Shown one piece after another: positions 62,674 to 64,000 of a DNA stretch of 64,000 bases. Source of the DNA: Pseudomonas denitrificans (nom. rej.) (lineage in GTDB: Bacteria; Pseudomonadota; Gammaproteobacteria; Pseudomonadales; Pseudomonadaceae); the NCBI RefSeq assembly GCF_008807415.1, contig NZ_CP043626.1, positions 3,534,001-3,598,000 on the forward strand, written 5' to 3'. Each line of letters starts with the position of its first letter. The stretch's first letter is position 1. Below the pieces are notes generated by a model. It did no database searches and was not told the origin of the DNA. It saw only the letters and a list, made by a program, of their open reading frames with translations. The translations under genes were made by a program, and so were the position numbers.

Positions 62674-63591
62674 ATGGAAATGCAAGGAAAGCATTATCTA
62701 AAAGTTGCAGCCCTGGGTCGCTACCCAGAATTGGAAATAACCAAGGACGAATACAACAGCATACTCAAAGCGAGAGCAACCCTGACTGCCGCACTAGACG
62801 TGGAAGAAAAATACGACCTAGTACTCGGGAATTTTTTAGACTTAGAAAAAGACCTATTAAATCTGACCGTTGAGAAAATCATAGATCATAGGTTTGACTA
62901 TAATCGCGCATACACGCTAACCAACACCCTAAACAGAAGGATTGTCAACTTCATTCTATCGGGGAAAAATTATACGGAGCTAATTGCAAGCAAAGCATCA
63001 AAATGCGCAACCAACGAAGAGGACGTAAAAGAAGCAATATCATCACTAAAAAGCAAACACTACGATCAAAATCTTGACTACCGATTAATGGAAGCTCTGA
63101 GGAATCACGTTAGTCACAGCGGGGTTGCAGTTCATCAAGTAGACAATCCAGATAAGTGGCTGATGAACGAAAGAAAAGAAGCAACCCATCTAGTATTCAA
63201 CATTGGGATCTACGCCCTTAAAGAACGACTTTCCAGCAACCCCAGCTTTAAAGCATCCGTACTGAAAGAACTACCGGAAAAAATCGATCTAAAAAAAGCA
63301 GCAAGATCTTACTTAGGAGCAATCAGCAGCATCCATGAAGAAGTTAGGAGGACAATAAAATCGGGAGTAGATGATGCAAGATCATTAATCGAAAAATACC
63401 TTAATGAATACGCAAAGATAAACAACGGAGAGTGCTTCGCCGTAGGAGCATACAGCCCTGAAATCGACTCCAGCGGTGAAAAACCTACAATATTACTTCT
63501 TAGCTGGGATGACGTTCGAATCAGCCTACAAGAGAAAAACCACTCTATCGCCAACATGGAGAAACGGCACGTCAGCAGCGCCCTCTTATGA
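62674..63591 (+). CDS. AT-rich hypothetical protein with putative HEPN RNase motif
   Basis: 305 residues, mostly helical and charged. Residues 136-150 read YRLMEALRNHVSHSG, where R143-X4-H148 matches the R-X4-6-H motif of HEPN RNases and NHVSH resembles the Asn-containing HEPN subfamilies. AAGGA lies 9 bp before the ATG. Base composition is far below the window average (many AAA and AAT codons), indicating transfer. The 273-bp gap upstream contains an AGAAC-N6-GTTCT repeat (62607-62622). Function is inferred, not shown. Confidence 0.6.
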   Translation: MEMQGKHYLKVAALGRYPELEITKDEYNSILKARATLTAALDVEEKYDLVLGNFLDLEKDLLNLTVEKIIDHRFDYNRAYTLTNTLNRRIVNFILSGKNYTELIASKASKCATNEEDVKEAISSLKSKHYDQNLDYRLMEALRNHVSHSGVAVHQVDNPDKWLMNERKEATHLVFNIGIYALKERLSSNPSFKASVLKELPEKIDLKKAARSYLGAISSIHEEVRRTIKSGVDDARSLIEKYLNEYAKINNGECFAVGAYSPEIDSSGEKPTILLLSWDDVRISLQEKNHSIANMEKRHVSSALL

Positions 63592-63677
63592 ACGACCAAA
63601 TGAGCGCCACTCACGCCCTTTACGGCAAAAGCTCTGATAGCCATAATAATCCACCATAGCCATCAAAGAGATAGACA

Positions 63678-64000
63678 GTGAGCAAGATTGAAAGAGACAC
63701 CTACACTCGCTCCCTAGAAGACGAGCTTGAGTGGAAACTAATTGACCAGTTGCACGGCGCTGTCTCCCAGCTAAGTGGCTTCTGCTTTGAAACAAAGAAA
63801 TTCTGCATCACCACACTATTTGCAGTGCTCGCCTTCATAACAAAATTCACGAACGACAAACTTGACAGCTCACTCTTCATCACAGTCGCAATCATCACAG
63901 TTGTATTTTGGTTCTTAGACTCCACTAGCTACTTTTACCAAGTCAAGCTTAGAGGCAGAATGCAGGAAGCCCAAAAGAAGCTTATTGAAAACAATAAAGA
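63678..64000 (+). CDS. Two-TM membrane protein, C-terminus off the right edge
   Basis: A GTG start (63678) with AAAGAGATA upstream opens a frame to the window end (107 codons). The product has an N-terminal helical stretch, a first TM helix (about residues 47-60, ITTLFAVLAFITKF) and a second (about 67-82, LFITVAIITVVFWFLD). A charged helix follows (VKLRGRMQEAQKKL). The architecture recalls small 2-TM effector proteins of defence systems, but I recognise no family. It lies 86 bp after the putative HEPN gene and is equally AT-rich. Confidence 0.55.
   Translation, partial: MSKIERDTYTRSLEDELEWKLIDQLHGAVSQLSGFCFETKKFCITTLFAVLAFITKFTNDKLDSSLFITVAIITVVFWFLDSTSYFYQVKLRGRMQEAQKKLIENNK

Follow-up and report, generated by a model that had tools for sequence, protein, structure and literature searches.

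A likely HEPN-type RNase gene and a separate membrane-protein/TIR gene pair in the cargo slot of a filamentous prophage of Pseudomonas denitrificans (nom. rej.)

Tha, a HEPN protein encoded by S. aureus prophages, acts against phages and is activated by phage tail proteins (PMC11087260), and in the P2-like phage AC1 a three-gene system of TIR and transmembrane proteins, located in a prophage hotspot, blocks phages (PMC9122126). Filamentous prophages of Vibrio are reported to have a variable locus that often contains defence genes (PMC11630473), and a similar accessory locus is reported for Pf prophages (Pf KKP, PMC11341870). A review of HEPN proteins places the conserved acidic residue, when present, in helix 2 and the motif at the close of helix 3, and some HEPN families are thought there to be non-catalytic RNA binders. 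These statements, and the comparisons made below, draw on PMC11087260, PMC3710099, PMC11204291, PMC9122126, PMC11630473 and PMC11341870. Here we describe three open reading frames, ORF1, ORF2 and ORF3, at and just beyond the right end of a 64,000-nucleotide stretch of Pseudomonas denitrificans (nom. rej.) DNA (contig NZ_CP043626.1, positions 3,534,001 to 3,598,000; hereafter the window), the host genome being a single contig of 6.88 Mb. The three genes are the attL-side cargo of a 15.2-kb filamentous (inovirus-type) prophage that lies between ttcA and a dnaJ-like gene. We consider it probable that this slot holds two separate units, likely a solitary HEPN-type RNase (ORF1) and a membrane-protein/TIR pair (ORF2-ORF3), which probably guard the lysogen against other phages. 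The basis is the prophage with its attachment (att) sites, the conservation of the ORF1 motif, the helical layout predicted for ORF1, the occurrence of ORF1 without ORF2 in the loci compared and the coupling of ORF2 to ORF3.

The features of the locus are given below; L002 is a locus that reads on past the window end, its position n being window position 62000 + n.

61573..62424, minus strand: ttcA, a chromosomal ORF to the left of the prophage; 93-99.6% protein identity beside the empty site at 16 sister loci
62444..62453, no strand: attL core TACGCGCAAA, left prophage boundary, 10 bp identical at both ends
62444..64000, no strand: left end of the 15.2-kb inovirus-type prophage, from att repeats and gene content
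62674..63591, plus strand: ORF1, 305 amino acids, predicted HEPN-type RNase with a helical core and a beta insert at about residues 150-205
63100..63117, plus strand: codons of R143-N-H-V-S-H148, predicted HEPN catalytic motif, from R/H conservation
63678..64000, plus strand, onward to L002 2178 (L002 1678-2178): ORF2, 166 amino acids when complete, PDC-M50A-like
L002 2175-2543, plus strand, beyond the window: ORF3, 122-amino-acid ThsB-type TIR protein
L002 2518-3507, minus strand, beyond the window: tyrosine integrase
L002 3507-9307, minus strand, beyond the window: inovirus-type core with Zot and SSB
L002 15625-15634 (window 77625-77634 by extrapolation), no strand, beyond the window: attR core TACGCGCAAA, 10-bp repeat

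The minus-strand genes that follow ORF3 encode the tyrosine integrase, a 431-amino-acid phrog_1159 protein, Zot, an adsorption-like protein, a short coat-like protein and SSB, with the coat, adsorption and Rep roles assigned from position and by eye. Zot/pI, SSB and an integrase therefore lie together inside att repeats, the combination by which we recognized an inovirus-type prophage. When the dnaJ-like flank gene was searched in 25 genomes of the genus, near-full matches were found at 23 loci, the present one included, and at 16 of these the site is empty, ttcA directly adjoining the dnaJ-like gene. Among the remaining seven, the same prophage is found in the host genome, G009 and G019; the site holds an integrase remnant, about 1.4 kb, in G023, about 1 kb between the flanks in G012, and a short stretch without visible ttcA in G007 (L063). 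In G020 (L081) the gap is filled by unrelated, fimbria-like genes (by eye), and the space between ttcA and the dnaJ-like gene is thus a recurrent insertion site. The sequence TACGCGCAAA occurs once in 10 of 11 empty sites compared and twice in the prophage, at L002 444-453 and 15625-15634; this places ORF1 to ORF3 within the prophage, in the interval from attL to the integrase.

A preliminary description of the window had reported a sharp drop in composition after ttcA and two co-directional genes in an AT-rich islet. The drop and the shared strand are confirmed: the guanine plus cytosine (GC) content is 0.645 over window positions 1-62443 and 0.419 within ORF1, and the 8 of 1262 sliding 918-bp windows with GC <= 0.43 all start at about 62.45-62.8 kb. 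The islet does have the setting of mobile cargo, but it is the end of a filamentous prophage, and reading past position 64,000, as had been advised, brought to light a third co-directional gene, ORF3, that overlaps ORF2. Other dips in this window of about 64% GC (0.56-0.58) are found at positions 16001-18000 and 56001-58000.

The prophages of the present genome (G000), G009 and G019 have a common core and site and different cargo, so that what each cargo does lends itself to a direct test. The corresponding slot of G009, between att and integrase, contains an ORF1 relative alone (71% amino acid identity). The integrase and the Rep-position protein of G000 and G009 are 98% identical, and at the DNA level identity is 93% in the integrase/Rep part and 73% in the ORF1 part; the slot thus diverges far more than the core, in the manner of exchanged cargo. 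In G019 the slot is without ORF1, ORF2 and ORF3, and the right-hand cargo is different as well. The present prophage has a second AT-rich cargo slot beyond the window (L002 11068-15340, GC 0.469), with a 291-amino-acid protein and, on the opposite strand, proteins of 179, 278, 263 and 162 amino acids; four second-slot proteins compared with Pfam gave nothing above the cut-off, and five compared with PADLOC gave nothing better than E 0.035. Toward attR, the G009 prophage (L050 1-5690) carries type-I-secretion-like genes (by eye), in a reading of its right end that stops short of the last 5 kb before the dnaJ-like gene.

The R-N-X3-H motif noticed in the preliminary description is found at residues 143-148 of ORF1, as RNHVSH. 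Taken alone such a motif is weak, R[NDH]x3H appearing in 7.7% of 20000 shuffles of ORF1 and Rx4-6H in 80%; it counts as strong because of its conservation in relatives, and not because of its presence. We aligned 42 of 44 ORF1-family proteins (alignment A1, with ORF1 itself, P0001, included and without P0007 and P0029). All 42, namely ORF1 and 41 relatives of as little as 24% identity, retain R143 and H148, R[NDH]x3H stands at the motif position in 40, and E140, which adjoins the motif, is found in 39. The family accordingly has the HEPN pattern of Rx4-6H with a polar residue after the arginine. Furthermore, the AlphaFold2 model of ORF1 (predicted local distance difference test, pLDDT, 90.7) has helices at residues 24-67, 76-109, 115-132/134-149 and 206-249, a four-helix core in which the motif closes helix three, the position that it has in HEPN RNases, as read from the secondary structure of the model and not from superposed coordinates. 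Conservation and predicted layout together support a HEPN-type core, as had been suggested, and ORF1 is likely to be a HEPN-type RNase. A 361-amino-acid branch of the family (L052, L053 and P0037) includes in P0037 a C-terminal HTH_31 match, below the cut-off, that is perhaps a fused regulator.

ORF1 also looks like a solitary gene. A genome scan gave 27 relatives, and no ORF2-type gene was found beside any of them in the 27 genome loci fetched, nor in G009, although several loci begin or end near the relative (e.g. L014, L017, L023, L027 and L028) and a partner could escape there. An ORF2 profile run over L001-L031 matched the host genome alone. Across 89 loci and 9289 stop-to-stop frames, matches to the ORF2 and TIR profiles were confined to the loci of the host genome, G146 and G277, and the loci of the latter two gave no match to the ORF1 profile; the TIR profile was built from three sequences and missed the distant TIR of L085, so that distant TIR partners could escape. 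The two-gene cassette of ORF1 and ORF2 proposed earlier is hence not supported, because in the loci compared the relatives, that of G009 included, stand without ORF2; the partner of ORF2 is ORF3, a TIR gene outside the window.

Nor does any other gene accompany ORF1 regularly. The P. soli locus of L007, which L038 and L051 also represent, was counted once. Among 250 neighbouring ORFs from 34 loci, the recurring families stem from shared host elements, namely the tails of Pseudomonas tailed prophages (L005-L007/L037), two Nitrosomonas loci and the G000/G009 prophage; besides these there are a few neighbour pairs of 21-34% identity in inconsistent positions. ORF1 relatives lie at the tail ends of tailed prophages (with a baseplate domain in L006), between the portal and capsid genes of Marinobacter phage PS3 (28% identity over 71%) and behind a portal gene in viral contig L041. 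In Psychromonas (L031 4349-6103) a complete gene of the OLD family (PADLOC Old, E 5e-226) and, by eye, one resembling a transposase gene lie close to a relative. The preliminary description had held that relatives standing alone in conserved housekeeping contexts would speak against defence: they do stand alone, but no conserved context is seen, several lying in prophages or phages and others among ordinary-looking genes. The gene is rare: it occurs in 7 of 398 genomes of the family, two of these with stop codons, and in 2 of 25 genomes of the genus, and it is missing from the same-species genome G017. The relatives with internal stops (G280:C7:32707-33516 and G311:C1:2914517-2914735) are a sign of decay in some hosts.

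The second gene had been described as encoding two transmembrane helices and a charged tail. That it encodes a membrane protein of the kind seen among defence effectors holds, but the window end had cut the gene, and the complete protein has 166 amino acids and three hydrophobic segments, with peaks near residues 45, 71 and 143-151. Its stop overlaps the start of ORF3 by ATGA, and ORF3 matches Pfam ThsB_TIR (PF08937) at 25.8 bits against a cut-off of 21.2. Relatives of ORF2 are present in 3 of 298 family genomes (the host, G146 and G277); in all three loci a TIR gene follows, overlapping by the same ATGA, with conserved F-V-S-Y and W-V-x-x-E. In L048 and L049 no ORF1 relative accompanies the pair; in G146 it lies near a 115-amino-acid AAA_15/AriA-like ORF and genes for PP2C and for a HEAT-repeat protein. 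In 369 genomes of the class, ORF2 was found in the host and as one weak fragment with stops, and it had no relatives in the viral contigs, phages and plasmids searched; the search with ORF3 returned itself alone among 10 candidates and nothing in phages.

Both proteins of the pair were compared with known families. The PADLOC profile PDC-M50A (PDLC04686) matches all 26 members of the ORF2 family in alignment A2 (ORF2 with 25 of 27 relatives, leaving out the short P0067 and P0071) at E <= 0.01, a remote match, with E 4e-5 for full-length ORF2 and 1e-6 for the best member; ORF3 matches PDC-M50B weakly (E 0.016). Among the Pfam matches of these 26 proteins at E <= 0.5 there are no SIR2, SLOG or macro domains and no SLATT family. 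ORF2 may be likened to SLATT proteins in architecture only, and its model (pLDDT 78.6) has no fold match in PDB at E <= 0.001. In its predicted working the pair resembles, by analogy, a sensor and effector of the Thoeris type; we do not class it as Thoeris because SIR2, SLOG and macro domains are missing from the Pfam matches. In G049 a canonical PDC-M50A gene overlaps a ThsB-like TIR gene (L085), and a second M50A stretch, with stops, lies near another TIR-like gene (L088).

From these observations we infer how the two units may act. ORF1 would be latent, likely as a dimer with R143 and H148 in a cleft, until a component of an incoming phage activates it; it would then cut RNA and end the infection at the cost of the cell, in the manner of Tha. 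In the second unit, the TIR domain of ORF3 would sense infection and either make a signal from NAD+ or use NAD+ up, with ORF2 as the putative effector in the membrane, presumably damaging it. Both would protect the lysogen from phages.

Several observations weigh against this interpretation. ORF1 is matched by no curated family in Pfam, PADLOC or NCBIfam; Pfam HEPN_LA2681 matches 2 of 42 members only (best E 6e-4, below the cut-off) and not ORF1 itself, and the same profile gave a single weak fragment, also below the cut-off, across 143 class genomes. By sequence ORF1 has no clear PDB relative, the best match being a synaptonemal complex protein at E 0.036. In the Foldseek comparison suggested in the preliminary description, neither PDB nor the viral structures gave a match to ORF1 at E <= 0.001, and PDB gave none to ORF2. 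In the VIA comparison of structures, non-HEPN helical bundles (Pyk2 8.2, vinculin 8.1, talin 7.9) score above HEPN chains. The conserved acidic residues E44 (42/42) and E58 (40/42) are in the first model helix, not in helix 2. As to genomic setting, several ORF1 relatives are among ordinary-looking chromosomal genes (e.g. L019, L011, L024 and L025; by eye), four of five neighbours of the G146 pair (L048) given to PADLOC match nothing, and the neighbours of the G277 pair (L049) look metabolic (by eye). ORF2 lacks any known ligand-binding domain. Finally, the slot is not always defensive, because in G019 it carries neither unit, and a cold-shock-type ORF was read there by eye.

Other explanations have to be set beside this one. 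That ORF1, ORF2 and ORF3 are one system, in which the TIR or the membrane protein controls the HEPN effector, is suggested by three co-directional AT-rich genes in one slot, with a gap of merely 86 bp between ORF1 and ORF2 in which no terminator-like site was found. A promoter-like match does lie in that gap, yet such matches are as frequent in shuffles (4 vs 3.6, no excess). What makes a three-gene system improbable, in our judgement, is that all 27 genome loci of ORF1 relatives, and G009, are without an ORF2-type gene, and that L048 and L049 hold ORF2 and ORF3 without ORF1. The absence of a recurrent partner among the neighbouring ORFs speaks against ORF1 as the toxin of a toxin-antitoxin module that stabilizes the prophage; HEPN toxins of a HEPN-MNT module are among the VIA matches, but we regard this reading as very doubtful.

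A solitary ORF1 could instead be a regulator or helper of the prophage or host cycle, for example in induction or RNA handling, rather than a defence protein. Its place next to the integrase region, its relatives in the head operons of tailed phages and the existence of presumed non-catalytic RNA binders among HEPN families would fit such a role. However, the predicted catalytic arginine and histidine are invariant in the alignment, the gene is confined to 7 of the 398 family genomes, and between the sister prophages ORF1 has diverged to 71% identity against 98% for the integrase and Rep-position protein, as exchanged cargo does; we therefore think this role unlikely. Our preferred reading remains that of two separate, predicted defence units. 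We further propose, tentatively and with slightly less than even confidence, that ORF1 founds an undescribed one-gene, phage-borne HEPN RNase family, its core interrupted by a beta insert and its sensor part unassigned, which travels as solitary cargo of filamentous prophages, tailed prophages and tailed-phage head operons, here beside a minimal TIR and three-helix membrane pair as an independent second unit. If so, a mobile one-gene HEPN family would stand beside Tha among the RNase defences carried by prophages and extend them to Gram-negative hosts and filamentous phages, and ORF2-ORF3 would offer a small model of a PDC-M50-type sensor and effector.

In comparison with known systems, the general kind is familiar, and the ORF1 family and the variant of the pair are unnamed in the libraries searched. 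In the literature searched, nothing was recognized as describing either, PDC-M50 was not mentioned, and the ThcA/ThcB/Thoeris matches listed included no mention of Thoeris. Tha is like ORF1 in being a single gene of similar length (301 vs 305 amino acids), carried as prophage cargo near the integrase (PMC11087260), with an R-N-x3-H motif (RNSIMH vs RNHVSH). It differs in its C-terminal HEPN domain (184-296, with R265/H270 of 301 in Tha-1), whereas ORF1 has its motif at 143-148 of 305, a core at about 24-249 and a beta insert behind the motif. No relationship of ORF1 to Tha-1 was detected by hhalign (A1 against the single Tha-1 sequence, probability 0.2%) or BLASTP (E 0.8), in a comparison insensitive enough to miss a presumed HEPN control (the second gene of L011, by eye) at 0.3%. 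Csx1, integron-cassette HEPN proteins and HEPN-MNT toxins share with the ORF1 model the helical core with the motif closing the third helix, which in Csx1, too, is followed by a beta-hairpin. Like ORF2-ORF3, the canonical PDC-M50 of G049 combines an M50A gene with an overlapping TIR gene, and ORF2 matches the M50A profile; the G049 match is far stronger (E 3e-29 vs 1e-6 for the best of the ORF2 family), and its TIR protein has 319 amino acids and comes first, whereas ORF3 has 122 and comes second. With Thoeris the pair shares a ThsB_TIR match above the Pfam cut-off and the combination of TIR sensor and membrane protein, but the Pfam matches of the ORF2 family include neither the SIR2-SLOG domains of ThsA nor a TM-macro effector domain, and ORF3 reaches 27.2 bits, in the TIR region only, against a cut-off of 220 for ThcB4 of type III Thoeris (NCBIfam NF058526). 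The AC1 system, compared here by description and not by sequence, has three genes instead of two and is similar in its prophage hotspot and in its TIR with transmembrane partners (PMC9122126). The accessory loci of Vibrio and Pf prophages are in other hosts and integration sites, and the filamentous phages of Vibrio rely at dif on recombinases of the host, whereas the present prophage has its own tyrosine integrase and the site between ttcA and the dnaJ-like gene (PMC11630473). Common to them and to the present case is a filamentous prophage with a variable locus, one that there often holds defence genes (PMC11630473, PMC11341870) and here holds predicted ones.
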